Positions 6,300-56,389 are shown, counted from the stretch's first letter. The stretch: DNA of 64,000 nt from Collibacillus ludicampi (GCF_023705585.1 NZ_BOQE01000001.1:1985001-2049000), one strand, 5' to 3'. Program-made: numbers and translations. Notes: generated by a model from the letters alone, not told the origin.

Positions 6300-7685
6300 A
6301 TGGCCAAGCAGGTTCTTGGCGTACCGGTGAAGCAAAATCAAATCATTGAACTCGATATCCATGGGATGAGTCATGAAGGGGAAGGCGTCGGCAAGTACGA
6401 AGGATTTACCGTGTTTGTAGCGGGCGCTCTTACGGGAGAGCGGGTGCGCGTAAAAATCATGAAGGTACATAAAAGCTTTGCCGTGAGTCGGCTGCTTGAG
6501 GTCGTCGCCCCGAGCGATGTGCGTATGGATCCTCCTTGCCCCATTTATCACCAATGTGGCGGATGCCATCTCCAACATGTGAGCTATGAGGCGCAATTGG
6601 TTCATAAACGACAGATTGTCGTCGATGCACTGGAGCGGATCGGGAAGCTTAGCCATGTGCTTGTACATCCCACTTTAGGAATGAAGGAACCTTGGAAGTA
6701 TCGCAACAAATCCCAGGTTCCAGTGAGTCTCGTGAACGGACACGTCGTGGCAGGTTTTTATGCGCCAAGAACCCATGAAATCATCGATATGGAAGGATGC
6801 CCGATTCAGCATCCCTATGCGGATGATATACTCAAAACGGTCAAACAAGCGATCGCTGAACTGGGAGTTGTGCCTTATGATGAGATCGGTCACAAAGGAT
6901 TGATCCGCCATATCGTCTCTCGCATCGGCTTCTTTACAGGCGAAACGATGGTTGTTCTCGTGACCAATGGGCGCTATTTGCCCAAGAAAGACCGATTGAT
7001 TGAGCGGTTACGACGAGAAATTCCACATCTAGTCTCAATCGTGCAGAATATCAATACGGCAAAGACGAACGTGATTTTCGGACAGGAATCGATCACCTTA
7101 TGGGGAAAAGATACGATCACCGATTACATCGGGGACATCCAGTTTGAAATTTCTCCGCGATCCTTTTTCCAAGTGAATCCTGTACAAACGCGCGTTTTGT
7201 ATGAAAAAGCACTCGAATACGCGCAATTGACAGGAGTGGAAGAAGTAATTGACGCATATTGCGGGATCGGAACGATCTCCCTATTTCTAGCGAAAAAGGC
7301 GAGGCACGTCTATGGGGTCGAAGTCATTCCTGAAGCGATCGAAGATGCGAAGAAAAACGCCGAGCGAAACGGTATTTCGAACGTTGATTTTATCGTGGGC
7401 AAAGCGGAAGAAGTCATCCCATTTTTGAACAAAGATAAAGGGGTTTCCGCAGACGTCGTGGTCGTCGATCCTCCTCGCAAAGGATGTGACGAAGCTCTTT
7501 TGCAGACGATCGCAACGATGCGTCCGGAGCGGGTCGTTTATGTAAGTTGTAACCCGAGCACGTTGGCCAGAGACTTACGATACTTGGAGGATCACGGGTA
7601 TCAAACTCTCGAGGTACAACCGGTGGACATGTTCCCGCAAACCTATCATGTGGAAGCTGTAGTATCGATTGTACGAAATGACTAA
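6300..7685 (+). CDS. rlmCD: 23S rRNA (uracil-C5)-methyltransferase (RlmD/RlmCD family)
   Basis: SAM-dependent RNA m5U methyltransferase (461 aa). An N-terminal TRAM domain (residues 10-70) precedes a [4Fe-4S] site, Cys80, Cys86, Cys89 and Cys167. The C-terminal Rossmann domain has DAYCGIGTIS (SAM binding), VVDPPRKGC and the catalytic-cysteine motif YVSCNPSTLARDL. In Bacillus the homologue YefA modifies both U747 and U1939 of 23S rRNA; this assignment is by family and by gene order after dagK. Start ATG follows GAGGTGGAAGG. Confidence 0.93.
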   Translation: MAKQVLGVPVKQNQIIELDIHGMSHEGEGVGKYEGFTVFVAGALTGERVRVKIMKVHKSFAVSRLLEVVAPSDVRMDPPCPIYHQCGGCHLQHVSYEAQLVHKRQIVVDALERIGKLSHVLVHPTLGMKEPWKYRNKSQVPVSLVNGHVVAGFYAPRTHEIIDMEGCPIQHPYADDILKTVKQAIAELGVVPYDEIGHKGLIRHIVSRIGFFTGETMVVLVTNGRYLPKKDRLIERLRREIPHLVSIVQNINTAKTNVIFGQESITLWGKDTITDYIGDIQFEISPRSFFQVNPVQTRVLYEKALEYAQLTGVEEVIDAYCGIGTISLFLAKKARHVYGVEVIPEAIEDAKKNAERNGISNVDFIVGKAEEVIPFLNKDKGVSADVVVVDPPRKGCDEALLQTIATMRPERVVYVSCNPSTLARDLRYLEDHGYQTLEVQPVDMFPQTYHVEAVVSIVRND

Positions 7686-7713
7686 GTAAAGGTTTCCAGA
7701 ATCTAGCAGAATA

Positions 7714-7734
7714 GTTCCCTCACTCACTGGGAAC
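7714..7734 (+). terminator. weak hairpin after rlmCD
   Basis: GTTCCC and GGGAAC pair around a nine-base loop; there is no T run, so termination is uncertain. Confidence 0.3.
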
Positions 7735-7783
7735 CTCATCATTCTCGAATTGGTATTAAATTCTCGTTGGCATCTTTTTAAGC

Positions 7784-7813
7784 TTGCTGAATTTACCATG
7801 GGTTTGTTACAAT
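7784..7813 (+). promoter_or_regulatory. promoter of the DUF420 gene
   Basis: TTGCTG, 18-base spacer, then TACAAT with a TGn extension. Transcription would start near 7820, so coding must begin after that point; this decides between the possible start codons of the next gene. Confidence 0.6.
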
Positions 7814-7842
7814 CAATCCGAGTATTTTGGAGGGCGAATCCA

Positions 7843-8331
7843 TTGGAATGGGATCCCCATCAAAAGAAAGGATGGATCCAAGTCATGCTGCAGTATCTTC
7901 CCTACATAAACGAGGCTTGTATTTTGTTAAGTGCGACTTTCATGGCCATCGGGTGGAGGTTCATTCGTAAGAAGCAGATTGAAATCCATAAGCGTTTCAT
8001 GATCCTGGGGTCGGTTTTCGCAGTTCTGTTTTTCACAGGCTATGCTTTGAGAACAGTACTGGTTGGGACAACGGCATTTGGCGGACCGGAACACCTGCGA
8101 TTGCCGTATGAAATCTTTTTGCAAATGCATTCCACACTTGCCACTGTTGCAGCAATCTTGGGCATACTGGTATTACGGCTGGCATTCAAACGAAACTTTT
8201 CGAAACACCGGAAATTAGGCCCCTGGGCTGTATCCATCTGGTTTATCACGGTTGCAAGTGGACTTGTCGTATTTCTCCTGCTTTATGTCATTTTCCCATC
8301 GGGGCCGACGACGAAAGTATTCGGGTCATGA
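7843..8331 (+). CDS. DUF420 family membrane protein
   Basis: A 162-residue protein with about four to five hydrophobic helices, matching the DUF420 family (YozB/CtaM-like). Bacterial DUF420 proteins are linked to cytochrome oxidase assembly. Typical elements are IEIHKRFMILG, RLPYEIFLQMHS and SKHRKLGPW, with conserved histidines in helices. I prefer a TTG start at 7843, nine bases after GGAGG and downstream of the predicted promoter; an ATG at 7885 is the alternative, while the upstream ATG at 7798 lies inside the promoter. Its position directly before two qox operons fits a role in oxidase biogenesis. Confidence 0.75.
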   Translation: MEWDPHQKKGWIQVMLQYLPYINEACILLSATFMAIGWRFIRKKQIEIHKRFMILGSVFAVLFFTGYALRTVLVGTTAFGGPEHLRLPYEIFLQMHSTLATVAAILGILVLRLAFKRNFSKHRKLGPWAVSIWFITVASGLVVFLLLYVIFPSGPTTKVFGS

Positions 8332-8368
8332 TGCGGAAGCAGTCAAGCAACAATTTTCTGAAAGGATC

Positions 8369-8407
8369 ATGACATTTTCATGAGACGATCATGACATCTT
8401 TATGACA
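8369..8407 (+). promoter_or_regulatory. direct repeats with 11-bp period upstream of qox operon 1
   Basis: Four copies of ATGA(C/G)A start at 8370, 8381, 8392 and 8402. A period of about one helical turn is the pattern bound by OmpR-family response regulators such as PhoP or ResD in Bacillus. Which regulator binds here is not known. Confidence 0.45.
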
Positions 8408-8421
8408 CTTTAATAATCTTA

Positions 8422-8455
8422 TTGAAGGGTTTAATTTTGTGTGATAACTTTCACA
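8422..8455 (+). promoter_or_regulatory. qox operon 1 promoter with Fnr/CRP-type palindrome over the -10
   Basis: TTGAAG (8422-8427), 17-base spacer and TAACTT (8445-8450) with a TG extension form a plausible promoter. A perfect TGTGA-N6-TCACA palindrome at 8440-8455 covers the -10. This is the published Bacillus Fnr consensus (also the E. coli CRP one). A protein bound here would block RNA polymerase, so repression is inferred. Confidence 0.6.
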
Positions 8456-8461
8456 TGAGAT

Positions 8462-8498
8462 CTACGAGTGTGTGAACTTTAAACGAACTCGTAGTTTT
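8462..8498 (+). other. leader hairpin of qox operon 1
   Basis: CTACGAGT (8462-8469) pairs perfectly with ACTCGTAG (8487-8494), followed by TTTT. It lies in the 5' leader about 60 bases before qoxA and could be a weak attenuator or an mRNA-stability element. Confidence 0.4.
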
Positions 8499-8558
8499 GG
8501 CTCGTTGAGTCAAATCAGACCACTTCATGTGGAATGTTAGAAGAAAGGAGAGAGACCA

Positions 8559-9515
8559 ATGAAGCAAAGAAGGCTGTTGAATTTTGTGAAACTTGCTGTT
8601 TTGTCAGCACTGACAGCCGTATTCATGGCAGGATGCTCACCTGATGAATATATGGTACTTCATCCTGCGGGGCCGGTCGCGCGTACCGAGTATGATTTAA
8701 TCGTGCTTTCAACCATACTGGTCGCGATCGTCATCATTCCTGTCATGGCGATTCTCGCATATATCGTCTATCGTTACAGGGATGTACCGGGGAACAAAGC
8801 GCCCTATATGCCGGAATGGGCGGACAGCAAAGTCCTTGAGATCATCTGGTGGGGGATCCCGATCGTCATCATCTTGCTTCTTGCTGTTCCGACGGCGAAA
8901 ACGACATTCGCCTTGACCAAGCCGCCGGTGCAGGATGTGAAACCGGTTACCATTCAGGTGACATCCTTGAACTGGAAATGGTTATTTACTTATCCCGATC
9001 AAAAGGTGGCAACCGTCAACTATGTCGAAATCCCGGCGGGCGTTCCCGTTCAGTTTGTATTAACCTCGGATTCGCCGATGAACTCGTTCTGGATTCCGCA
9101 ACTGGGCGGACAAGAGTATACGATGCCCGGTATGGCGATGAGGCTCTGGTTGCAAGCGGATAAGCCGGGCGAGTATTTCGGAAGCGGGGCGAGCTTTACA
9201 GGTGAAGGTTTTGCGCACATGCAATTCAAAGTGATTGCAAAGCCGCAGTCCGAGTTCAATGCATGGGTGACGCAAGCGAAACAAACGTCACCTGGTTTGA
9301 CGAAAGACGGGTATGAGAAGCTGAAGCAACCAAGCGTCTTAAGTAACACTCTGACATACTCGTCATATCCACAAGGACTTTTTGAAGAAATCGTCGATAA
9401 AAACGGTGGAGAATATATGAACCACGATTTCATGGGCAATGAGCAAAAGGATCAAAGCGGAAACATGAATCATGATATGCAAAACCATCAGATGTCAGAC
9501 TCCATGAGTCACTAA
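8559..9515 (+). CDS. qoxA: cytochrome aa3-600 menaquinol oxidase subunit II, copy 1
   Basis: Lipoprotein subunit II (318 aa) of a heme-copper quinol oxidase. The signal peptide ends in the lipobox VFMAGC with Cys26 as lipidation site; two membrane helices follow (residues about 40-70 and 85-115) and then an external cupredoxin domain. The CuA ligands of cytochrome c oxidases (CxxxC) are absent; the matching region reads SGASFTGEGFAHMQFKV, so electrons come from menaquinol rather than cytochrome c. The C-terminal 30 residues are rich in His, Met and Asn and could bind metal. First gene of qoxABCD-ctaB. Confidence 0.95.
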   Translation: MKQRRLLNFVKLAVLSALTAVFMAGCSPDEYMVLHPAGPVARTEYDLIVLSTILVAIVIIPVMAILAYIVYRYRDVPGNKAPYMPEWADSKVLEIIWWGIPIVIILLLAVPTAKTTFALTKPPVQDVKPVTIQVTSLNWKWLFTYPDQKVATVNYVEIPAGVPVQFVLTSDSPMNSFWIPQLGGQEYTMPGMAMRLWLQADKPGEYFGSGASFTGEGFAHMQFKVIAKPQSEFNAWVTQAKQTSPGLTKDGYEKLKQPSVLSNTLTYSSYPQGLFEEIVDKNGGEYMNHDFMGNEQKDQSGNMNHDMQNHQMSDSMSH

Positions 9516-31260: not shown

Positions 31261-32550
31261 TTACATGGCAAGCATCTCAGCCAAATCTTCTTGAGCGTCT
31301 CCGATGAGCTTAAGATTAAATGTTTCTTGCAAGAAGTTTAACACACCTGGTGTTAAAAATTCCGGAGCTTTCGGACCAATTCGTATATCTTTGATTCCTA
31401 TGCTGAATAATCCAAGTAATATGGCAATGGCTTTCTGTTCAAACCAAGACAATACAATGCTGACGGGCAACTCGTTGATTTCACATTGGAAAGCGTCAGC
31501 CAACGCACGGGCAATCTTTACAGTGGAAATGGAGTTATTGCATTGCCCCAAATCGATATATCTCGGGATACCCGTATCTCCTACGGTTCCAAAATCAATG
31601 TCGTTAAAACGAAATTTCCCGCAGGAAGTGGTTAAAATGACCGTATCATTAGGAAGCAACGTAGCTAATTCCCGATAATAATTACCACCCCGTCCGGGAG
31701 CGTCACAACCGGCGATCACAAAGAATCTTCGAATCTTGCCTTCTTTTACGGCCGAGATAATTTCCGGTGCCAAACCGATCACCGTTTGGTGGTGATAGCC
31801 GGTGACCAGCGTCTGATCCGAGTCGATATTTGCCGATGGCAATTGCAAAGCTTTTTCGATGAGTGGAGTGAAATCATTATTTTCGATTTTCGTCACGCCT
31901 TCCAAACCTGCTACTTCATAGGAGAAGAATCGGTCGGAGTAGGTTCCTTTTATCGGCATCACGCAATTGGTGGTTGCCAATATGGCACCGGGGAATTCTT
32001 CAAACAATCTTCGTTGATCATGCCATGCCTTCCCGATGTTGCCCTTTAAATGAGGATATTTTTTCAATTCCGGATACCCGTGGGCAGGCAGCATCTCCGA
32101 GTGAGTATAAATATTGATGCCTTTGCCTTCCGTTTGTTTCAGCAATTCTTCTAAGGCAAATAAATTATGACCGGTTACGACGATACATTTCCCTTCGATT
32201 TTATTTTGCGTGACAGTAATAGGCTGAGGGATACCAAACCGTTCTGTATGTGCACGATCCAGCAAATCCATCACTTTGATTGCGGCTGAACCCACTTTCA
32301 TGGCCATATCAATATGCTCTTGTAAATTAAAGTTTACATTTGTTAATGTGAAGTATAAAGCCTCATGTGTAATCGCATCAACTTCGGGATCCGTGTATCC
32401 CAATTCCCTTGCATGCGTTGCATATGCAGCGATTCCTTTAAGAGCAAATATAATCGTATCTTGTATGCTTGCCAGATCTTCATTTTTCCCACATACGCCG
32501 ACAACTTTGCAACCGCCAATCGCTGTTTGCTCACATTGATAACAAAACAC
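31261..32550 (-). CDS. hcp: hybrid cluster protein (hydroxylamine/NO reductase)
   Basis: Short-form hybrid cluster protein (429 aa). N-terminal cluster ligands Cys3, Cys6, Cys14 and Cys20 follow the CX2CX7CX5C spacing of [4Fe-4S] forms. The hybrid 4Fe-2O-2S cluster ligands are represented by VTGHN, ATTNCVMP, AGCDAPG, TTSCGKF, LGQCN and the late Glu/Lys region. Hcp reduces NO to N2O (in E. coli) and hydroxylamine in vitro, protecting against nitrosative stress under anaerobiosis. No hcr reductase gene is adjacent. Two Fnr-type boxes lie upstream. Confidence 0.95.
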   Translation of the reverse strand: MFCYQCEQTAIGGCKVVGVCGKNEDLASIQDTIIFALKGIAAYATHARELGYTDPEVDAITHEALYFTLTNVNFNLQEHIDMAMKVGSAAIKVMDLLDRAHTERFGIPQPITVTQNKIEGKCIVVTGHNLFALEELLKQTEGKGINIYTHSEMLPAHGYPELKKYPHLKGNIGKAWHDQRRLFEEFPGAILATTNCVMPIKGTYSDRFFSYEVAGLEGVTKIENNDFTPLIEKALQLPSANIDSDQTLVTGYHHQTVIGLAPEIISAVKEGKIRRFFVIAGCDAPGRGGNYYRELATLLPNDTVILTTSCGKFRFNDIDFGTVGDTGIPRYIDLGQCNNSISTVKIARALADAFQCEINELPVSIVLSWFEQKAIAILLGLFSIGIKDIRIGPKAPEFLTPGVLNFLQETFNLKLIGDAQEDLAEMLAM

Positions 32551-32614: not shown

Positions 32615-32683
32615 TATATCCATTATTCTTTGAAATCAGTGGTTCTGGTGTGATAAGAATCACACTTTGTGATCTGTTTCACA
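32615..32683 (-). promoter_or_regulatory. hcp promoter with two Fnr-type boxes
   Basis: Two perfect TGTGA-N6-TCACA palindromes at 32649-32664 and 32668-32683. On the minus strand AATAAT (32627-32622) is a -10 placed so that the proximal box centre is at -41.5 and the distal one at -60.5. This is the class II activation geometry known for Bacillus Fnr. Confidence 0.8.
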
Positions 32684-32826: not shown

Positions 32827-33633
32827 TTACAATTGTTTTTCCTCATTCACTTTGCGAGCGACCTCATTTTTATCCTCTTCCGACATGACACTGCTCGCCA
32901 TAGGGAATAATACGTTGTCTTCTTTCATGATATGTGCCCGTAATACACTTTCCAACGGCTTGAACGCCTGTACTACGTCGGACTCACTGCCCTTATGATT
33001 TTTCAAATCTTGAAGACGCTTCCGAAAGGTCTCGTGGTTGTCCCGGATGATCTTGTGTTCGGAAAGCATGACCGCGATCGGGCCTGCATTTGTCCCGATA
33101 TATTTCCCCAAAAGCGGAAATAAGATTTCCTCTTCGTAACGAAAATGTTTGTTAAGCTCTTCATGAACCATTTTGTCTGCTAGGTCGTAGGTTTCAGCAT
33201 GATAACCGCCTGCCGTCCGGTCTAACACTTCCAGCAGTTCCGCATGTTCTTCGACAAACGACCATAATTGCGGGGAGACAGCCGCTTTCGCGTTCGAACT
33301 GTTCTCAACACTTTTTCTTGGTTCGCTTCCTATTTCCTGATTGGATACTGGACTCGGGGTGAGTACCAGCACCACCAGACTTTCCTCGATCGCTTCGATC
33401 GAGTGCTCTACATGTTTTTCGAGGCTTACCATATCGCCAGATTGTAGGATCACTTCTTCGTTTGCCTTGAATCGGATTTTACCCTGCAGCACGAATACCA
33501 AAATATCACTGGATGTCTTATGTTTCTCCAGAACCTTCCCTTTCGAAAAGGAGAATTGAACCACTTTTGACACCCCGTTATCCAACACGGGTCGGATAAA
33601 CGATTCCGTAAAGTTTAAATGATAGACTTTCAT
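32827..33633 (-). CDS. cupin-hemerythrin fusion protein
   Basis: A 268-residue fusion of an N-terminal cupin (about residues 1-95; HVEHSIEAI metal-side loop) with a C-terminal hemerythrin HHE four-helix domain (about 120-260). Di-iron ligands appear as EEHAEL, NKHFRYEEEILFP, LSEHKIIRDNHE and RAHIMKEDNVLFP. Hemerythrin domains bind O2 or NO, and RIC/YtfE-like members repair iron-sulfur or di-iron centres after nitrosative damage. AAGGAGG precedes the ATG. A partial copy of the hemerythrin half lies at 54227-54783. Confidence 0.88.
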   Translation of the reverse strand: MKVYHLNFTESFIRPVLDNGVSKVVQFSFSKGKVLEKHKTSSDILVFVLQGKIRFKANEEVILQSGDMVSLEKHVEHSIEAIEESLVVLVLTPSPVSNQEIGSEPRKSVENSSNAKAAVSPQLWSFVEEHAELLEVLDRTAGGYHAETYDLADKMVHEELNKHFRYEEEILFPLLGKYIGTNAGPIAVMLSEHKIIRDNHETFRKRLQDLKNHKGSESDVVQAFKPLESVLRAHIMKEDNVLFPMASSVMSEEDKNEVARKVNEEKQL

Positions 33634-33881
33634 CTGAATCCTCCTTTGAAGCGTGTCGATGGTTTTCTGGCTTTCGATTCGGCTTCAACCCGAATGTTGA
33701 CTACACGCATGGGTATGAAAGGCATCGTATTATCAGTTTTCCTCCATAATAAACATTGATAATTTAACCTATCGCGAGTGATTCCCAGGAGTGTCAAAAG
33801 GTTGTTATTGCCCTGATACAAGTTCAAAAAGTACTGACTGTGAAGGCAGTACTCGATACGCGAACCGAATCGGAAGCTTTG
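33634..33881 (-). other. long 5' leader of the cupin-hemerythrin gene
   Basis: About 250 bases between predicted transcription start and ATG. An 86-codon frame crosses it but begins upstream of the predicted start and lacks a ribosome binding site. A TTGACA-like -35 around 33800 could mark a second promoter. No known riboswitch is seen. Confidence 0.35.
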
Positions 33882-33931
33882 TACATTCATAATAGAGTGG
33901 GGAAATCATCCGAGTTGTGATATAAATCACA
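33882..33931 (-). promoter_or_regulatory. Fnr-type promoter of the cupin-hemerythrin gene
   Basis: Perfect palindrome TGTGA-TATAAA-TCACA at 33916-33931 and TATTAT (-10, minus strand) at 33894-33889, placing the box at -41.5. The start near 33882 leaves a leader of about 250 bases, without recognised riboswitch, before the ATG at 33633. Confidence 0.75.
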
Positions 33932-34013
33932 ATCAACTTTCAATGTAGCCCTCCATGCCGCAAGCGACGGCGCCATCAGAAGATGATAAGTTTCTTGTGT
34001 GGGAAGAGAGATT

Positions 34014-34482: not shown

Positions 34483-35640
34483 ATGAAACCGATTCTCGGG
34501 ATCCTCTCTGTATGGCAGGGGGATGAAAGTAAAGACCGTCCTTTCGGTTTACAGACCTCGTTCTTTGAAGCGATCCATAAGGCTGCATACTCATTAGGAA
34601 TTGGTTGTTACGTTTTTTTTCCTCAAGATCTGGGCAACACAAACGGAAAACTACGTGCGTACTCCTTTCAAGGCAACACATGGATTGAATCTTTTGTCCC
34701 ATTCCCGCATGTGGTTTACGATCGAATTCCGTTACGTTCTCTTGAAACTGATCCCGATTACATCAATTTCAAACGATCCATTCTCAAGTATACGGGTGGA
34801 CGAATGTTCAATCGTACCGGGTTTTTCTCCAAATGGCAGATTTACTCCCAATGTAAGAAAGATCTCCCTAAAGACTTGCTCCTTCCTAAAACCGAGATGG
34901 TCGTTAAAGCTCAAAGCGTCATTCGGAGAGCATCTGACTGGGAAGAGGTTTGGTTAAAGCCGGATGCAGGAAGCTTGGGGAGAGGTGTTTATCGTCTGGT
35001 TAAGGAACCGTTTGGCTTTACTCTGGAATCCAGTGATCATTCTTCAATGGATCAACTAGGAGAAACGGAATTGGTATCCTTCTTGAAAGAACTGCTATCG
35101 ACCGAGCATTATCTCATACAACAGGGGATTTCACGTGCTGAGTACAACCGCCATCCCTTTGATATTCGCATCTTGGTTCAAAAAAACGGCAACGGAAAAT
35201 TTGTGATCACCAATCAATTCGCTCGTCTTGCCGCTCACGGACAAATCGTTTCCAACATACATGCGGGGGCTAACGGACATCCCCTAAAAGATTTACTCAC
35301 TCAAGCCGAACGAAGCACGTTACGCAAACATGCACTTGCTTGTGCCCATCATCTCGATTCTGTTCTTCCGGGGACTATAGGGGAATTAGGGCTTGATATG
35401 ATTCTTGACCGAAACAGGCGTTTCTGGTTTCTCGAAGCAAATGCCAAGCCTTTTTTAAAGATGGAAGAAGCCGATCCACGTTCTCAAAAGATAGCGAAGA
35501 GAATTGTTGAGTTTGCCATCTATTTATGCAAACAACCGCCTAAATACACATCAAATTTACTAAAAAAGGAAAGGAAAAATCGACAACGAAAAAAATTACT
35601 CCTCGATCAAGACCGAAGCTCTATCCGCACGCTTCGATAG
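34483..35640 (+). CDS. YheC/YheD family spore-coat-associated ATP-grasp protein
   Basis: ATP-grasp-fold protein (385 aa) of the YheC/YheD family, small endospore coat proteins whose ligation substrate is unknown. The family begins with LGILSV and VPFPHVVYDRIP; the ATP-grasp part shows VWLKPDAGSLGRGVYRL (lysine and glycine-rich loop), HPFDIRILVQKN and ELGLDMILDRN...FLEANAKPF (Mg2+ ligands). A Lys/Arg-rich tail overlaps the convergent DUF2935 gene by 45 bases. Start ATG follows GAGAGGTG. Confidence 0.87.
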   Translation: MKPILGILSVWQGDESKDRPFGLQTSFFEAIHKAAYSLGIGCYVFFPQDLGNTNGKLRAYSFQGNTWIESFVPFPHVVYDRIPLRSLETDPDYINFKRSILKYTGGRMFNRTGFFSKWQIYSQCKKDLPKDLLLPKTEMVVKAQSVIRRASDWEEVWLKPDAGSLGRGVYRLVKEPFGFTLESSDHSSMDQLGETELVSFLKELLSTEHYLIQQGISRAEYNRHPFDIRILVQKNGNGKFVITNQFARLAAHGQIVSNIHAGANGHPLKDLLTQAERSTLRKHALACAHHLDSVLPGTIGELGLDMILDRNRRFWFLEANAKPFLKMEEADPRSQKIAKRIVEFAIYLCKQPPKYTSNLLKKERKNRQRKKLLLDQDRSSIRTLR

Positions 35641-36414
35641 GTCATTAAGAATGGAGAGAAACTTATTCGCTTCACGAGTAACATGATCGGCCAGTATTGG
35701 ATTGATCAGACTTAAAACTTTGCATTGTCGGATCAGATCACGTGCATCTTTCTTAAAGTTACGCAGATCGGTGGTTGCCGACTGAACATCTCCCGTGAAG
35801 CGGGTGAGTGTTTGGAAGAACGAAGGTTCTGTCTGCTTCACCATAGATTCGAGATCGCGAGCTTGGGCTAACAGTTGATCAAACTCATCAGAGAATGTGC
35901 TTGCGACTGTCACCAGCTTTCTCTCCGATGGATCGAGTAACGAGGCAATAAATTTACTATGGTCGGCCATGATCCGAAGCCAAAATACATTTTCATCTAC
36001 AATCTTATCTGCAAGAGGTTCGGACTTCCCTGCATTCAGATTTTCAAGTGTGAGAACAAAATACCCGGCTTCGCGGGCAGTGTGATCAATGAGTAGTGGA
36101 AAGTTAAAGCCCCTGATTTTGCAAGTGATGATCAACAAGAGAACTTTTGACTTGAAGTCTCGAAAGCGTCTCGTCAATGAAATGCTCCCCTCATTGAATC
36201 GGCGTACAACATCGGCATCCAGGCGCAACGATCTTGTTTCCGTCAATCGCCTGTCAAACATGTCGAAGAACTGATCCGCCTCCCGGATTAAATCCTTATC
36301 GTTTCGATCAAATCCTTCAGACATGAACAGCGCATGCTCCTTCATGATGCGTAACCAGAACAGATTTTCATTGATTGATTCCCTGATAAATTCCGATTCG
36401 GTTAAAACCGCCAT
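35596..36414 (-). CDS. DUF2935 tandem-domain protein
   Basis: An all-helical protein (272 aa) composed of two DUF2935 units. Each starts with a NLFWLRIMKEHALFM- or NVFWLRIMADHSKFI-like helix and later has LLIDHTAREAGYFV or ILADHVTREANKFL, with conserved His and Glu that suggest a ferritin-like di-metal site. Known members are Bacillus proteins of unknown function. RBS AGGGGGAAG precedes the start. The pair of iron-type helical domains fits the iron/NO theme of nearby genes, by inference only. Confidence 0.85.
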   Translation of the reverse strand: MAVLTESEFIRESINENLFWLRIMKEHALFMSEGFDRNDKDLIREADQFFDMFDRRLTETRSLRLDADVVRRFNEGSISLTRRFRDFKSKVLLLIITCKIRGFNFPLLIDHTAREAGYFVLTLENLNAGKSEPLADKIVDENVFWLRIMADHSKFIASLLDPSERKLVTVASTFSDEFDQLLAQARDLESMVKQTEPSFFQTLTRFTGDVQSATTDLRNFKKDARDLIRQCKVLSLINPILADHVTREANKFLSILNDLSKRADRASVLIEE

Positions 36415-36934: not shown

Positions 36935-37344
36935 ATGGCTGTTAGTAGGTTATGTAGAGAATTTGCTAGAATTTTAGGTGCTCAACCATCTGTCATCAAC
37001 GGTGTACTGCAACCCGTTCCCGTCTTAACATTAAAGCAAGGATTTTGGGAAGGAAGTCGAAATCGTTTCTGACGGTTCCACAGGCTTTCACGTTTGAATC
37101 AAGAGATGCAAGAGGGCGGGCTTTATGTCAAGGGGAAACCGTAATCTTGCAACGAGAGATTAACCCGTTTGTTTCTAAACTCCGTCAACATGGAATTAAG
37201 GTTACGGCATTACACAATCACTGGTTATTCGAAAAGCCGCGGTTGATGTTTATCCACTTTGAATCGATTGACCACCCGCTGGCTTTTGCCCGAAAAGTCC
37301 GTGATGCTCTGAGCGTTCTGACAAACCAATCAGTTGACCCGTAA
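36935..37344 (+). pseudogene. DUF1259 (LppY/LpqO-like) protein, frameshifted
   Basis: Together the two frames encode a nearly full single DUF1259 domain (about 136 codons). Frame one from ATG 36935 (AGGGAGGG upstream) gives LCREFARILGAQPSVINGV and then leaves the family; frame two gives CTATRSRLNIKARILGRKS followed by FLTVPQAFTFESRD, GETVILQREINPF and KVTALHNHWLFEKPRLMFIHFE. The switch falls near 37003, a one- or two-base indel. DUF1259 function is unknown; conserved HNHW suggests metal binding. Confidence 0.75.
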
Positions 37345-37412
37345 TGAAATAGAGTAGGCCGGAATGTAAAAATGAAAACGGTTGTAGTGAAAGGGAGAGC
37401 CCGAGTAACAAC

Positions 37413-37447
37413 GTAAAAACACCGTCCCATAATTGAGGGACGGTGTT
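37413..37447 (-). terminator. terminator of the DUF2249-DUF59 operon
   Basis: Perfect 11-bp stem AACACCGTCCC/GGGACGGTGTT with an eight-base loop, followed on the minus strand by a T run. It lies 20 bases after the DUF59 gene. Confidence 0.85.
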
Positions 37448-37467: not shown

Positions 37468-37761
37468 TTAGAAGCCAAGACGCGTTTTCGCTTCCTCTGA
37501 CATCTTGTCGGGTGACCATGGCGGATCCCAGACGACGTCGACCTTGACGGAGCGAATACCCGGTTGACGCCGCAACAACCGTTCGGCACCGCCGGCAATG
37601 GTATCGTGCATCGGGCAGCCTGGTGTCGTCAGCGTCATGCGAATATAAACGTCCCCATCCTCATTGCGAATCTCATACACGAGTCCAAGATCGATAATGT
37701 TGATGCCGAGTTCGGGGTCGTATACCTGTTTCAACAACTTGCGAATATCTGCAGTCTCCAT
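37468..37761 (-). CDS. DUF59/MIP18-family metal-sulfur cluster assembly protein
   Basis: A 97-residue protein of the MIP18/PaaD/SufT family with DPELGINIIDLGLVYEI, the cysteine motif TTPGCPMHD and KVDVVWDPPW. Such proteins help load iron-sulfur clusters onto targets. The ATG at 37761 follows AGAGGTGG; a longer frame by three codons is unlikely. It follows the oxidase-like membrane protein on the same strand after 53 bases and ends the operon, so it may serve cluster insertion for this operon or for hcp. Confidence 0.88.
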   Translation of the reverse strand: METADIRKLLKQVYDPELGINIIDLGLVYEIRNEDGDVYIRMTLTTPGCPMHDTIAGGAERLLRRQPGIRSVKVDVVWDPPWSPDKMSEEAKTRLGF

Positions 37762-37814
37762 ACAAACCACCTCTCGTATTCATACCAGGTTTCCCTACTC
37801 AAGATCTGATCTGC

Positions 37815-39047
37815 CTAACGGGTGAACACTTTCGCAATCATGCACACATAGAACAGCGAGAAAAGAGAAAGCGCAACGCCGCTCCATTGCGTCCATACCA
37901 TGTTGTTTAATCCAAGACTGACAATTTGAACGACCAGACTTGCTGCGATAGCAGCCAGCCCATAAGCGACACAACGGTCTTTCAGCAGATCGGCCATCGT
38001 TGGGATATTCCCTTTGCCGACATGAGGCCCATATTTGTGCGTCCACCAAAGAAATGGTACGATCTTCGATAAATATCCGAGAATCGTTAAGGCGACCCAT
38101 CCCCACAGGTAAGCCCAAACGATGATCACAATCGCCCTTTCATCCATTACCCGCTCGGGAGCGAACAGAGTGCATGCGAGTGCGACCGTACTGATTACGG
38201 CAAGCGCCCGCGCACTGTAGACGGCCGCCAAAACGCCTGCGCCAGGACTTTTTTTGTGACGCGCATTACGGATACGCGTGATATGCATGTTGTATGCGTA
38301 CACCGCTAATGTCAACAAACCGACAGCCGCACGGACAGCAGGAATGGGTGCGGCCGTCAGGAAGGCGACGGCTCCCGTAAAGACGGCGGCGTTCCACAAG
38401 AATAAAACGACGTATGACGTTCGGTTGGATACACCGTGCGACAAATAAAACATCGGCAACATTTTGTAGCTGAATCCTGTGATCAACAACCCAAACCACC
38501 CGATCGTTCCCATCCAGATATGGGTGTAAAACAGTCTTTCATGCCAAGCGGGCCACCATTGGAAGGCGAAATTGAGACCCATGAGGAGCCCGATCAGACC
38601 TGTCAGAAAGAGGAAGAGAAGCGCGCACGATGTACTGAGAGTGATCAGATTCCACTCTGCAGCCTGGATCAGTGTCAGCGTGATATTCACGACGAACAGG
38701 ACGATACCGATCCAGGCCAGTGTGGCGAAGATGGCGATCCATTGTGCTTGCCCGGCGGCAAACCCGACAAGCAAACCGGCGGTGCCTACGGTATACAGCA
38801 CATAGTGGACATACCCCAATGTACGGCTGAACACGTCCTTTTGGAGTACAACGCGTATGAGCTGATACACCGCTCCCATAGCGATCATCGTCGCCCAACC
38901 GAGTACCAGCAAATGAACGTGAAACCATCCCGCCGGGCTTCGCGGCTGATGAGTGATCCAACCGGCGAACTGCAAAAGCGTCGTGATATTGAACAGGGCG
39001 AAAGAGACAAGCCCCGTTGCGATAAAAAGAAAAGGAAGGAGGAACAT
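37815..39047 (-). CDS. heme-copper-oxidase-I/NnrS-like polytopic membrane protein
   Basis: A 410-residue protein with about 12 hydrophobic helices. Histidines sit in helices as in heme-copper oxidase subunit I: FHVHLLVLGWATM in helix 2, HYVLYTVG, WHERLFYTHIWMGTIGW and YLSHGVSN. The full CuB set (HPEVY, HH pair) of qoxB is absent, so it is not a standard oxidase; NnrS or small cbb3/NOR-like proteins are the nearest type I can name. It lies between DUF2249 proteins and a DUF59 protein, under an Fnr-type promoter, which suggests a role in NO or low-oxygen metabolism. Confidence 0.68.
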   Translation of the reverse strand: MFLLPFLFIATGLVSFALFNITTLLQFAGWITHQPRSPAGWFHVHLLVLGWATMIAMGAVYQLIRVVLQKDVFSRTLGYVHYVLYTVGTAGLLVGFAAGQAQWIAIFATLAWIGIVLFVVNITLTLIQAAEWNLITLSTSCALLFLFLTGLIGLLMGLNFAFQWWPAWHERLFYTHIWMGTIGWFGLLITGFSYKMLPMFYLSHGVSNRTSYVVLFLWNAAVFTGAVAFLTAAPIPAVRAAVGLLTLAVYAYNMHITRIRNARHKKSPGAGVLAAVYSARALAVISTVALACTLFAPERVMDERAIVIIVWAYLWGWVALTILGYLSKIVPFLWWTHKYGPHVGKGNIPTMADLLKDRCVAYGLAAIAASLVVQIVSLGLNNMVWTQWSGVALSLFSLFYVCMIAKVFTR

Positions 39048-39061
39048 GAGAGAGCCCTCCT

Positions 39062-39610
39062 TTACGTTTTTTGGATCATAACCCGCGCCGATCCATCTGG
39101 TTGATCCTCGATAGTATACGGATACCCGAGTGCCGTCAACTCTTCGAGCAAAAACACGGGAACCCGATCGTTATGAATGACGACCCGGTCACCTTTCCGG
39201 CATGTTTCCAAAGCTTTTAGGGTGCGGACCATCGGCTGCGGTGGCTCAAGTCCTCGGTTATCTAACTCAATCGTCCGCGGAGAATCGGCGTTCACCTCCA
39301 TCGGAGCGATGGTTTGTCCCTTGTTGGGGAAACTGCCTTCGTCCCATTCTTTCTCCTTCAATTCTTTTTTTCGGCTCTTGGGAACAAATGTCACTTTCCA
39401 ATGGTCTTTTGCCAACTGCTCCGTCTTGTAAGCAAAACCTTTCGCTCTCATGAGTCCAAGCAGCGGAACGGGTTTGAAGGTCGTGTGCAAAATGAACGTA
39501 TCTGCAGGATCAAGCGTTCTGACCGTATCCATTATCAGTTGAAAAGGCTCAAGTTTTTTGCGCAAATGAGGGCGGACGTCCAATTCCACAGTTTGAGGGG
39601 CAGCTCCCAT
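39062..39610 (-). CDS. tandem DUF2249 protein
   Basis: Two DUF2249 domains in 182 residues, separated by a charged linker around residues 80-105. The first reads VELDVRPHLRKKLEPFQLIMDTV...FILHTTFKPVPLLGLM and the second TIELDNRGLEPPQPMVRTLKAL...VVIHNDRVPVFLLEEL. DUF2249 has a TusA-like fold found in denitrification and sulfur-transfer contexts. The third ATG (39610) is best spaced from AAGGAG. It ends 14 bases before the oxidase-like gene starts. Confidence 0.8.
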   Translation of the reverse strand: MGAAPQTVELDVRPHLRKKLEPFQLIMDTVRTLDPADTFILHTTFKPVPLLGLMRAKGFAYKTEQLAKDHWKVTFVPKSRKKELKEKEWDEGSFPNKGQTIAPMEVNADSPRTIELDNRGLEPPQPMVRTLKALETCRKGDRVVIHNDRVPVFLLEELTALGYPYTIEDQPDGSARVMIQKT

Positions 39611-39623
39611 TGTCATCATCTCC

Positions 39624-39971
39624 TTACTGTGGCTGATCCATCACAACGGGACGGAGCGCTGCTTTTGCCGATTCGTACAGAGCCGCCATTCCGCCGTAAA
39701 GAGCATAGAAGAAAGCATCGGGCGCATCGAGCGAAAAAGACAAATACTGCTTCGGATCGATGCCCAGCATGTGTTCAAACAGGGCGGCGCTGTCATAGGC
39801 GTAAAAACAAAAATAAACGAATTGAAACTCTGGCATTTTCTCGTAAATGGTCGTAATGTCTTTGGCATAGAGCTCCACATGCTGCTCTGCCTCACGAATC
39901 ATGGCGATGGCATCATCGAGGTCCACTACAATCCTGATCGTTTTCTCGTCGAGAACGGTAACTTTCGCCAT
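39624..39971 (-). CDS. conserved-looking hypothetical protein (115 aa)
   Basis: Compact 115-residue alpha/beta protein beginning MAKVTVLDEKTIRIVVDLDDAIAM; the centre is aromatic-rich (QFVYFCFYAYDS), then LFEHMLGIDPKQYLSFSLDAPDAFFYALYGGM. No family is recognised. The start follows AAGGAGGTCCC by five bases and the gene fits exactly between two DUF2249 genes, with 14 bases on either side, so it is part of the operon. No signal peptide or membrane helix is clear. Confidence 0.65.
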   Translation of the reverse strand: MAKVTVLDEKTIRIVVDLDDAIAMIREAEQHVELYAKDITTIYEKMPEFQFVYFCFYAYDSAALFEHMLGIDPKQYLSFSLDAPDAFFYALYGGMAALYESAKAALRPVVMDQPQ

Positions 39972-39984
39972 GGTAGGGACCTCC

Positions 39985-40217
39985 TTATTTTTTTTCGATT
40001 TTTACCTGGAATAGGTCGGGTCCTTCTTCGAGATATTCCCAAGTGAATTGCCCCGGATGATCGATTCAAACTGGTATCGAAGAGGAATCGGATTATGGTC
40101 GTTAATCAGTAGCATGGCTTCTCCGGGCTTCAATTTCTCAAATGTTTCAAAAATCACCTTGTGTTTCAAATAAGGCGGATATTCCGGCGCGCGAACCGTG
40201 GCTGCAAATTCGTTCAT
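39985..40217 (-). pseudogene. single-domain DUF2249 protein, frameshifted
   Basis: The first gene of the operon. From ATG 40217 (GGAGGAG upstream) it reads a DUF2249 domain, EYPPYLKHKVIFETFEKL and AMLLINDHNPIPLRYQFE. After that the open frame leaves the family and ends at 40002. The alternative frame continues DHPGQFTWEYLEEGPDLFQVKIEKK and stops at 39985, the typical end. The two join near 40066 if one base is added or two removed. Whether this is a true mutation or a sequence error is open. Confidence 0.75.
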
Positions 40218-40251
40218 TTATAATCTCCTCCTCGGGATGTGGTAACGGGAT

Positions 40252-40301
40252 ACCACTGATTATAAAAAGTTTAACCTCTTCTCATTGTGATGAGCGTCAC
40301 A
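40252..40301 (-). promoter_or_regulatory. Fnr-type promoter of the DUF2249 operon
   Basis: Perfect palindrome TGTGA-TGAGCG-TCACA at 40286-40301 and a perfect TATAAT (-10) on the minus strand at 40264-40259; the centre falls at -41.5 from the predicted start at 40252. The operon would be activated by an Fnr-type regulator. Confidence 0.8.
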
Positions 40302-52550: not shown

Positions 52551-54226
52551 ATGCGTTACACTCGATTGTGGATGAGTTTGACGATCGTATTTGTGCTGTC
52601 ATTTGCAGTACTTGGTTACTATGGCAAAGAAATTTATCATGTCATGCCTCCCATACCAAAGCGAGTAGTAACAAATACATGTCATGTATTGTTTACCGAA
52701 CAGAATATCAAAGAAGGCCAAAACGTATGGCAGTCCATGGGTGGGCAAGAGGTGGGAAGCGTTTGGGGCCACGGCGCCTATGTCGCCCCGGATTGGACAG
52801 CCGATTGGCTCCATCGGGAATGCGTCTGGATTTTAAATACGTGGGCACAGGCACAATACGGGAAAACCTATGATGCGCTTGATGAAGAAACAAAGGCGGC
52901 ACTTCAAACAAGATTGCAGAAAGAAATGCGAACAAATACTTATGATCCGAATACCGGTGACTTGGTAATTTCCCCTCTACGGGCTCAGGCTTTTGCAGCT
53001 ATAAGCCAACATTACTATTCATTATTCACGAATGATCCCAAGCTCGCTAACTTGCGTGATGCGTATGCCATCCACGAAAATGCCATTAAAAATCCTAATC
53101 TTGTTCCATCTCTAAATGCATTTCTGTGATGGGCGACATGGTCTTGTGCGACCAATCGTCCGGGTGATACGATTACCTATACCAACAACTGGCCGCATGA
53201 ACCGCTCATTGCCAACAATGCCACGGGTTCGATGGTTGTTTGGTCCGTCGTGAGTTTTGTGCTGCTTCTTGCAGGGATTGGTGCTTTGGCTTGGTATTAT
53301 GCGATCCAAAAGCATGCTGAAACAGAGGAAACGTTTCCCGAGAAGGATCCGTTACTTGCTCTATCCCCAACACCGTCCATGAAAGCGACGCTAAAGTATT
53401 TCTGGGTCGTCGCAGCTTTGTGGGTCGTGCAGGTGGCATTAGGTGCCATCACAGGTCACTATTAAGTGGAAGGAAGCAGTTTTTACGGAATTCCGATCGC
53501 AAAATGGATTCCTTATTCCATCACGCGGACGTGGCACACGCAATTGGGCATCTTCTGGATTGCCACCGCTTGGCTCGCCACGGGTTTATTCATGGCCCCA
53601 GCGGTTTCCGGGTATGAACCTAAATTCCAACGATTTGGCGTCAATTTTCTGTTTGTCTGTTTGCTCATCATTGTGGTCGGCTCAATGGCCGGTCAATGGT
53701 TTGCCGTCATGCAGAGACTTGGTTTGAACACGAACTTTTGGTTCGGTCACCAAGGATATGAGTACACGGACCTCGGCCGGTTCTGGCAGCTCTTTCTGAC
53801 AGTAGGACTTTTTCTCTGGTTATTCTTGATGGGACGGGCACTTTGGCCAGCGTTCCGTAAATCCGAAGAGAATCGGCATTTGCTCGCTTTGTTTTTACTC
53901 GCGTCCACAGCGATTCCGGTTTTCTATATACCCGCTTTGTTGTGGGGACAACATACCCATCTTGCCATTGCCGAGTATTGGCGCTGGTGGCTGGTCCATC
54001 TGTGGGTGGAAGGCTTCTTCGAAGTTTTTGCGACCGTGGTCATCGCGTTCCTGTTTACCCGTATGGGGCTGCTGAGAATTCAAACGGCGACCTCTTCCGT
54101 TCTTTTTTCGACGATCGTCTTCTTGTTTGGTGGGATTATCGGGAGGTTCCATCATTTGTACTTCAGCGGAACTCCGACCGGAGTCTTGGCGTATGGAGCA
54201 ACCTTTAGCGCGCTTGAAGTGGTACC
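52551..54226 (+). pseudogene. norB: quinol-dependent nitric oxide reductase (qNor), disrupted
   Basis: Clear qNorB: MPPIPKRV, the heme-c-like-fold replacement domain with GQNVWQSMGGQEVGSVWGHGAYVAPDWTADWLHRE, NRPGDTITYTNNWPHEPLI, TWHTQLGIFWIATAWL (heme His), HLWVEGFFEVFATV and GRFHHLYFSGTP (FeB/heme His). It would reduce NO to N2O. The frame from ATG 52551 is unbroken except for two stops within it, TGA at 53127-53129 (in place of an aromatic codon before WATW) and TAA at 53463-53465 (after GHY). It then ends at GATFSALEVVP, about 200 residues short, where a foreign sequence joins. Confidence 0.9.
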
Positions 54227-54783
54227 CTCCGAGTCCAACCGCCCATTCTGTATCGAAACCTGTTAACGGATTGGAGAAAAACGGAGAACCAAGAAAAAGT
54301 GTCGAGAACAGTTCGAACGTGAAAGCGGCTGTCTCCCCGCAATTATGGTCGTTTGTCGAGGAACATGCGGAACTGCTGGAAGTGTTAGACCGGGCGGCAG
54401 GCGGTTATCAGGCTGAACCCTACGACTTAGCAGACAAAATGATTCATGAAGAACTGAACAAACATTTTCGTTACGAAGAGGAAATCTTATTTCCGCTTCT
54501 GGGGAAATATATCGGGACAAATGCAGGCCCGATCGCGGTCATGCTTTCCGAACACAAGATCATTCGGGATAACCACGAGACCTTTCGGAAGCGTCTTCAA
54601 GATTTGAAAAAACATAAGTGCAGTGAGTCAGATGTCGTACAGGCGTTCAAGCCATTGGAAAGTGTATTACGGGCACATATCATGAAAGAAGACAATGTAT
54701 TATTCCCGATGGCGAGCAGTGTGATGTCGGAAGAGGATCAAAATGAGGTCGCTTGCAGAGTGAATGAGGAAAAGCAAAAGTAA
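54227..54783 (+). pseudogene. truncated hemerythrin half of a cupin-hemerythrin gene
   Basis: From the junction with norB, the next frame reads PSPTAHSVSKPVNGLEKNG and then EPRKSVENSSNVKAAVSPQ, the linker and full HHE domain of the gene at 32827-33633, with about ten differences in 160 residues. The N-terminal cupin is missing. There is no ribosome binding site; the LEKNGEP start (TTG near 54270) is weak. The di-iron ligands are kept. The DNA shows a second cupin-hemerythrin gene once followed norB and that a deletion fused the two. Confidence 0.8.
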
Positions 54784-55008: not shown

Positions 55009-55079
55009 CATGATAACGATCGAATCATCCCTTATGGGTTAAGCTCCTCTCAAACTGTTCAACTATTCCTTACATTGAT

Positions 55080-55129
55080 TGTGATTTATATCACAATGTG
55101 AAGATTTCCCCTGCTCTATAATGGTTTCA
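55080..55129 (+). promoter_or_regulatory. Fnr-type promoter of hmp
   Basis: Perfect palindrome TGTGA-TTTATA-TCACA (55080-55095) and a perfect TATAAT (55117-55122); the box centre is at -41.5 from a start at 55129. Confidence 0.82.
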
Positions 55130-55174
55130 TCACGGTTCTATTCGAAGTCAACCAGAAGAAGAGAGGGTGTTCAC

Positions 55175-56389
55175 ATGTTACGTGCGAAAACGTTAGAAAT
55201 TGTTAAATCCACGGTACCTGTATTAGAACAACATGGGAAAGAGATCACTACCCATTTTTACAAGATGATGTTGGGCAATCACCCAGAGCTGTTGAATATA
55301 TTTAACCATGCAAACCAAAAACAAGGTAGACAACAAACGGCGCTTGCCAATGCTGTTTATGCGGCTGCGGCACATATCGACAATCTTGAGGCGATCATGC
55401 CAACCGTTATACAAATTGCTCACAAACACAGAAGCTTAGGCATTAAACCAGAGCATTATCCAATTGTGGGTAAGTACTTACTGATGGCCATTAAAGATGT
55501 ACTGGGAGATGCAGCAACGGATGAAATCATCGAAGCATGGAGGGAAGCGTATCAAGCCATTGCCGATGTATTCATCAGCGTGGAAGCGGACATGTACCGG
55601 CAAGCCGAACAACAAGAGGGCGGTTGGGCAGACTTCAGGAATTTTGTGGTAGACAAAAAAGTGAAAGAAAGCGATGTGATCACGTCTTTCTATTTAAAAC
55701 CGGAAGATGGCAAGGCGATCGCTTCATTTCTACCCGGACAGTATATCAGTGTAAAAGTGTCGATCCCAGGAGACCAATACACGCATATTCGTCAATACAG
55801 TTTATCTGACTCACCAGGTAAAGATTACTACCGCATCAGTGTCAAACGTGAAGACGGAAGTGCTGACAAGCAAGCAGGGGTTGTCTCCACGTTCCTGCAC
55901 AATCATGTACAAGAAGGCGACATTTTGCGAATCAGCGCGCCCGCAGGAGATTTTGTGCTGAATATGGAAAAAGAGACGCCTGTTGTACTGCTCAGTGGCG
56001 GGGTTGGATTGACGCCTATGATCAGCATGTTGAATACGATTGTTGAAAAACAGCCTGGACGTGAAGTCACGTTCATTCACGCAGCGATCAACAGTAAAGT
56101 GCACGCGATGAGAGAGCATGTCGCCCGCTTGGCGGCCGAACGGGAACATGTACGCTCTTTTGTATGCTACTCAAATCCAACGGATGAAGACAGAAAGTCC
56201 GGCAATTTTGATAAAGAAGGTTTTGTCGATTTGGAATGGCTTCAGACCATCGTGCCTTCTCCTCAAGCGGACTTCTATTTCTGCGGCCCTGTTCCCTTTA
56301 TGAGGTCGATTTATCATGCTTTGAAACAATGGGGAGTAGCCGAAGAAGCGATCCACTTCGAATTCTTTGGTCCCAAAGGGGAACTGTAA
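55175..56389 (+). CDS. hmp: flavohemoglobin (nitric oxide dioxygenase)
   Basis: Flavohemoglobin (404 aa) that turns NO and O2 into nitrate, or reduces NO anaerobically. Globin domain residues 1-140 with Tyr29, Gln53 and proximal His85 (IAHKHRSLG) as in E. coli Hmp. FAD domain from about 155 (RQYSLSD), NAD domain with LLSGGVGLTPM and the C-terminal FYFCGPVPFM and HFEFFGP. The ATG at 55175, five bases after AGAGGGTG, gives the family length. Transcribed from an Fnr-type promoter. Confidence 0.96.
   Translation: MLRAKTLEIVKSTVPVLEQHGKEITTHFYKMMLGNHPELLNIFNHANQKQGRQQTALANAVYAAAAHIDNLEAIMPTVIQIAHKHRSLGIKPEHYPIVGKYLLMAIKDVLGDAATDEIIEAWREAYQAIADVFISVEADMYRQAEQQEGGWADFRNFVVDKKVKESDVITSFYLKPEDGKAIASFLPGQYISVKVSIPGDQYTHIRQYSLSDSPGKDYYRISVKREDGSADKQAGVVSTFLHNHVQEGDILRISAPAGDFVLNMEKETPVVLLSGGVGLTPMISMLNTIVEKQPGREVTFIHAAINSKVHAMREHVARLAAEREHVRSFVCYSNPTDEDRKSGNFDKEGFVDLEWLQTIVPSPQADFYFCGPVPFMRSIYHALKQWGVAEEAIHFEFFGPKGEL

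Follow-up and report, generated by a model that had tools for sequence, protein, structure and literature searches.

A five-gene operon of Bacilli combining DUF2249 proteins, a NorB-fold membrane protein and a DUF59 factor, associated with denitrification genes and possibly serving nitric oxide tolerance

Catalytic heme-copper oxidases and nitric oxide reductases (NORs) share a set of six His ligands, one each in transmembrane helices (TMs) 2 and 6, two in TM7 and two in TM10; the TM7 pair and the TM10 HxH hold CuB or FeB and the hemes, and the fold has three-fold pseudo-symmetry. Pei, Li, Kinch and Grishin (2014, Protein Sci 23:1220) reportedly described heme-copper oxidase homology (HCOH) proteins, 12-TM homologues with two conserved His and a DUF2249 context, and are said to have suggested a role for them in denitrification or with nitric oxide (NO). 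DUF2249 has been linked to denitrification and, citing that work, to the heme-copper superfamily (PMC11218638); DUF2249 genes of Haloferax mediterranei lie near nirK and nor and are induced under denitrification (PMC11218638), and the single and double DUF2249 proteins DrpA and DrpB of Thermus thermophilus are tied to nitrate respiration (PMC6282519). Here we describe a five-gene operon of Collibacillus ludicampi, found in a window of 64,000 nt (GCF_023705585.1 NZ_BOQE01000001.1:1985001-2049000, one strand), and read it, with a probability of about one half, as an accessory NO-tolerance module of nitrate respiration and denitrification, probably made up of a heme protein with Fe-S or metal helpers. 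An earlier, sequence-only reading of this DNA knew of no description of the set as a functional unit, yet the two links of DUF2249 named above were already in print (PMC11218638, PMC6282519).

The operon and its signals, all on the minus strand, are as follows.

40286-40301, minus strand: Crp/Fnr-type box TGTGA-N6-TCACA, TGTGACGCTCATCACA, a perfect palindrome
40259-40264, minus strand: -10 hexamer TATAAT, whose spacing places the box at about -41.5
40002-40217, minus strand: D1, single DUF2249 protein, 71 aa (Pfam DUF2249, E 2.8e-14), frameshifted and truncated
39624-39971, minus strand: U115, 115-aa protein without known family (no Pfam, NCBIfam or PHROG match; AlphaFold pLDDT 91)
39062-39619, minus strand: DD, double DUF2249 protein, 185 aa (Pfam DUF2249 in two stretches, E 3e-30)
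37815-39047, minus strand: M410, 410-aa, 12-TM heme-copper-oxidase homologue (alignment of 66 homologues; AlphaFold; NorB fold match)
37468-37761, minus strand: D59, DUF59 or metal-sulfur cluster assembly factor (Pfam PF01883, E 5e-23)
37406-37446, minus strand: intrinsic terminator, with U5 after a fully paired 10-bp stem (-19.6 kcal/mol, z -6)

The sequence-only reading had placed all five open reading frames, closely spaced, at these positions, and had called the promoter box and the terminator perfect; all of this holds. The intergenic gaps are, from first to fifth gene, 30, 4, 14 and 53 nt. The first gene is indeed a DUF2249 gene, though not an intact one: it has one base fewer than its relatives, so that D1 is out of frame past about residue 53 and is missing a C-terminal third which 46 homologues conserve. 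The missing base could be an assembly error.

When 84,980 species genomes were scanned, 478 relatives of M410 came up, and the locus counts that follow refer to the best 80 of these 478. Scattering of the genes in relatives had been named as the outcome that would speak against a functional unit. The core of DD, M410 and D59 is instead linked in 78/80 loci, and all five genes stand together in 33. Homologues of U115 occupy the same place in the operon and number 34 among the 80 loci, and D1 and U115 occur as a pair, D1 being present in 31 of the 32 long loci with U115. In 12 further operons, apart from those that begin with D1, the first gene is that of NirK, which immediately precedes the module and shares its strand and its apparent transcription unit; NirK is nearby at 5/32 of the five-gene operons versus 22/41 of the others. 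A paralogue of M410, 30-34% identical to it, is often encoded no more than a few kb from the operon (locus L038, 14351-15634; L039, 12405-13781; L066, 7444-8691; L104, 9616-10983); the one aligned copy, at L038, has R in place of H204.

The genes adjoining the module include narGHJI, moaA, nirK, RIC and qNor, along with cupredoxin genes. Clustering of the neighbours at 96 loci gave MoaA at 41, Crp/Fnr regulators at 34, NirK at 31, NarK at 28, NarH at 27, NarG at 18, RIC/ScdA at 12 and qNor at 9. The NirK neighbours have the Cu ligands, and nearly all have the catalytic His motif, which serves to define NirK in PMC4770552. Co-occurrence was measured in 300 Bacilli genomes, in which the M410 family, called at 260 bits or more, is present in 57. 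For NirK the threshold was 140 bits, with the addition of one genome whose hit came in two pieces; the curated cut-off was passed in 0/300 genomes. M410 is present in 31 of the 35 NirK genomes (odds ratio (OR) 71, p 3e-22), 25 of the 35 qNor genomes (OR 18), 31/83 narG genomes (OR 4.4) and 24/75 RIC genomes (OR 2.7). The expected co-occurrence with nir and nor genes in Bacilli is found, and M410 is associated with both NO-producing and NO-defence genes. Since kinship of genomes inflates such p-values, the NirK test was repeated by genus and within genus: the association stands at p 8e-10 at the genus level, and within genus g32 there are 10 genomes with both NirK and M410 and, among the genomes listed, 5 with neither.

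M410 was predicted from the sequence alone to be a 12-helix protein with oxidase-like histidines and no standard CuB set, and both parts are borne out. The AlphaFold model, made with 66 homologues, has 12 TM helices at pLDDT 94.2, and Foldseek and VIA-align agree on the NorB/CcoN arrangement over the full length; NorB (4xyd_A) is matched by VIA-align with Z 36.1 and a root-mean-square deviation of 2.8 over 380 aligned residues, CcoN being tied with it as top structural match. The Pfam COX1 match is E 5e-4 (19.6 bits, under the curated cut-off of 34.8), and it is the only profile listed at E up to 1, the NnrS profile giving no match. Sequence and profile searches of M410 against solved structures returned nothing meaningful, and profile-profile comparison with alignments of qNor and of O2 oxidases was not significant, the template alignments being too shallow. 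The only invariant helix histidines among the 66 homologues are H45 (TM2) and H176 (TM6); H204, in the loop past TM6, is conserved besides these. The TM7 His pair and the TM10 HxH are absent, so the six-ligand set of a catalytic heme-copper enzyme is incomplete. With invariant histidines in TM2 and TM6 only, M410 could bind a single bis-His heme at most and would lack a standard binuclear centre; by the pseudo-symmetry of the fold, this pair would put the heme in a pocket that is left empty in oxidases.

The two DUF2249 proteins score 53.1 (D1) and 104.3 bits (DD) against PF10006, above the gathering score of 29.5. They had been called TusA-like and cast as sulfur carriers. A relation to TusA exists (Pfam TusA matches DUF2249 at E 2e-8), but the TusA catalytic Cys does not: the motif CPxP reads PPxP in 66/66 DD sequences, and there is no conserved Cys in D1 (46 homologues) or in DD (66). 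Conserved instead are His residues, H19 and H41 (both invariant) in D1 and H45, H73 and H149 in DD. TusA-type persulfide transfer is therefore not the chemistry of D1 and DD, and the carrier role falls. D59 scores 81.6 bits against PF01883 (gathering score 23.5) and has C49 and H52 invariant in 73/73 homologues, which bears out its naming as an Fe-S assembly factor; against the SUF_assoc model TIGR02945 it scores 106.2 bits, under the equivalog cut-off of 143.4. U115, which had gone unrecognised, indeed has no family in Pfam, NCBIfam or PHROGs and no relatives in viral contigs. Its confident model gave a best Foldseek E of 2.0 and a best VIA-align Z of 3.8 (Cmr5, 78 residues), which we take as no match.

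The promoter box, which is the Bacillus Fnr consensus, has its centre 29.5 nt from TATAAT (40264-40259), and lies at about -41.5 if the start site is 7 nt past the -10 hexamer. Among relatives whose operon begins with D1 it was found at 39/41, in most of these 39 some 77 nt 5' of the start codon, against a background of 6.7% of random 460-nt windows. A clear Bacillus-type C-terminal Fnr Cys triad is found in none of the five Crp/Fnr homologues in the genome, so the signal could be oxygen or NO. The window holds a further perfect TGTGA-N6-TCACA box at 8440-8455.

The module extends beyond Bacilli, as seen in plasmid records. On p42f of R. etli the order is norQD-hemN-DUF2249-M410 homologue-double DUF2249-DUF59-nnrS-nirK-Crp/Fnr-nnrU, with the module flanked by norCBQD on one side and nnrS-nirK on the other, and on pSymA of S. 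meliloti the same four genes stand beside nnrS-nirK; searching the literature with the locus tags of the S. meliloti copies gave nothing usable. In the haloarchaeal genus Haloprofundus the module adjoins nirK and has three DUF2249 genes, a Thermus plasmid has DrpA- and DrpB-like genes together with an M410 homologue and DUF59, and Aliarcobacter has a partial form. By inspection of the sequences, both M410 histidines are retained in all five. The Thermus locus (L149) also encodes, at 7548-7982 and 7985-8824, two proteins, one small and resembling a single-unit (4-TM) heme-copper homologue, the other possibly globin-like.

Three further genes with boxes, and a dead qNor, lie on the same contig, all within about 25 kb of the operon.

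31261-32550, minus strand: Hcp, hybrid cluster protein (Prismane, E 1e-123)
32827-33633, minus strand: cupin-hemerythrin protein, with a box at 33916-33931
52551-54266, plus strand: qNor pseudogene with two in-frame stops and its C-terminus replaced
55121-56389, plus strand: flavohemoglobin Hmp (Globin, FAD and NAD domains)

Upstream of hcp are two perfect boxes (32649-32664 and 32668-32683); hcp and the cupin-hemerythrin gene probably belong to the operon's regulon, not to the operon itself. The start of Hmp is more likely at 55175, with a box at 55080-55095. The hmp promoter (55060-55110, plus strand) and the hemerythrin promoter (33880-33940, minus strand) share the box TGTGATTTATATCACA and resemble each other farther downstream too (GATTTCCCC..CTCTAT), as though the one were a duplicate of the other. 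The qNor remnant runs on into a near-duplicate of the hemerythrin gene at 32827-33633 (together 52551-54783, plus strand). An assembly error as the cause of the broken qNor was considered and ruled out, given the two in-frame stops and the near copy that replaces the C-terminus. The host genome has no narG over the cut-off, no NirK-grade match and no qNor besides the dead one. Downstream of the operon are a double DUF2935 protein (35596-36414, minus strand) and a DUF1259-type fragment (37045-37344, plus strand) that covers only positions 34-120 of the 121-position profile and is probably a gene remnant.

Under the NO-tolerance reading, low oxygen or nitrogen oxides would switch the operon on through a Crp/Fnr-family regulator. 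M410, a membrane protein with the NorB fold and two of the six usual His, would carry one b-type heme and no binuclear centre, and at the membrane this heme might bind NO or hand electrons on to a partner. The His-bearing DUF2249 proteins and the DUF59 factor would supply and repair Fe-S or other metal centres, and would thereby let nitrate reductase, like other Fe-S enzymes, keep working during NO production. The best experimental hint is from Thermus, where the drpAB double mutant makes NarG and has little nitrate reductase activity (PMC6282519), a phenotype that suggests a maturation or protection defect. The host, too, retains the operon although no known denitrification enzyme accompanies it, and this speaks more for protection than for a role dedicated to NirK. 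Of the membrane redox system for low oxygen or NO that the sequence-only reading had proposed, a conserved, box-controlled membrane module with denitrification neighbours is what these data carry; redox activity itself they do not. Several points weigh against NO tolerance. We found no experiment on any M410 homologue in the literature, and heme and NO binding by M410, the Fe-S role of the other proteins and the pairing of partners are inferences, unlike the operon, its box and conservation, the denitrification association, the predicted fold and the His pattern. NarG, NirK and qNor genes are all absent in 10 of the 57 M410 genomes; judged by its frameshifted D1, the window's own copy of the operon may be impaired; and the co-occurrence with denitrification genes also fits electron transfer, sensing or NO reduction.

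Electron transfer would have M410 oxidise menaquinol through its one heme and feed NirK, or the cupredoxin of NirK, outside the membrane, with the DUF2249 and DUF59 proteins assembling or regulating M410. NirK is the tightest partner, by genomes and by its place directly upstream in 12 loci, and cupredoxin genes occur near the module; but NirK is absent in 26/57 M410 genomes, the window's own included, and the five-gene operons are less often near it than the others, which leaves this explanation unlikely, if still a serious one. We are more doubtful of a sensing role, which has been proposed for DrpA and DrpB and in which the DUF2249 proteins and M410 as a heme protein would respond to nitrate or NO by tuning nar and nir expression. 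Expression of nar and dnr is altered in Thermus drpA and drpB mutants (PMC6282519), and the Thermus plasmid joins DrpA- and DrpB-like genes with an M410 homologue and DUF59; the proteins have no output domain, however, DUF59 has no place in sensing, and a double mutant that lacks reductase activity though the protein is present points to maturation.

The missing TM7 and TM10 ligands, which leave no site for heme b3 and FeB, make it improbable that M410 is a non-canonical NO reductase in place of NorB, even with NorB as its best structural match. In 18 genomes, it is true, NirK and the M410 family occur without qNor, and in Paenibacillus genomes of this kind the best-scoring COX1 proteins carry the O2-oxidase motif HPEVY in every copy examined; yet M410 coexists with qNor in 25 genomes, and most of those qNor-less Paenibacillus genomes have Hmp. 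A bolder proposal is a long shot to the same degree: M410 might supply the NO-handling enzyme that is missing from Paenibacillus with NirK but no NOR, consuming NO by a chemistry unlike that of NorB at a single heme shifted to the third of the pseudo-symmetric pockets (TM2-TM6), with U115, DUF2249 and DUF59 proteins as dedicated partners. A sulfur relay or membrane redox system built on TusA-like persulfide carriers has the kinship of DUF2249 with TusA behind it and, given the lack of any conserved Cys, is so improbable that we set it aside.

The module spans Bacilli, rhizobia, Thermus, haloarchaea and Campylobacterota, has no assigned function, and in Bacilli is closer to NirK than qNor is. 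It is relevant to the question of how denitrifiers with no recognisable NO reductase withstand the NO they make, and thereby to the emission of NO and N2O. Two concrete targets come from it: M410, with the NorB fold but fewer ligands, and U115, which has no known relatives.

Among known systems, the HCOH proteins may include M410, which by their description shares the 12 TMs, the two conserved His and the denitrification context. They resemble the present operon in the heme-copper fold and the DUF2249 context as well, while the Bacilli form with U115 and the NirK statistics come from the present analysis. NnrS is likewise a 12-TM heme-copper-like protein of NO regulons and adjoins the module in R. 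etli and S. meliloti, but there it is a separate gene of the same cluster, and M410 lacks a match to its Pfam profile. NorB and qNor have the fold predicted for M410, which is without their binuclear-centre His in TM7 and TM10. DrpA and DrpB are homologous to D1 and DD, and the homology of DD to the DrpB-like protein of Thermus extends along 180 aa; in DrpB a DUF1858 domain at the N terminus precedes the two DUF2249 domains, whereas DD has the latter only, and the described Thermus drp operon is bicistronic (PMC6282519), unlike the five-gene form of Bacilli. The Haloferax mediterranei genes share the link with denitrification, but that case is archaeal and treats the DUF2249 genes singly (PMC11218638). 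What is new here is the five-gene Bacilli form with U115, its conserved box, the quantitative association with NirK, and the rejection of the sulfur-carrier idea.

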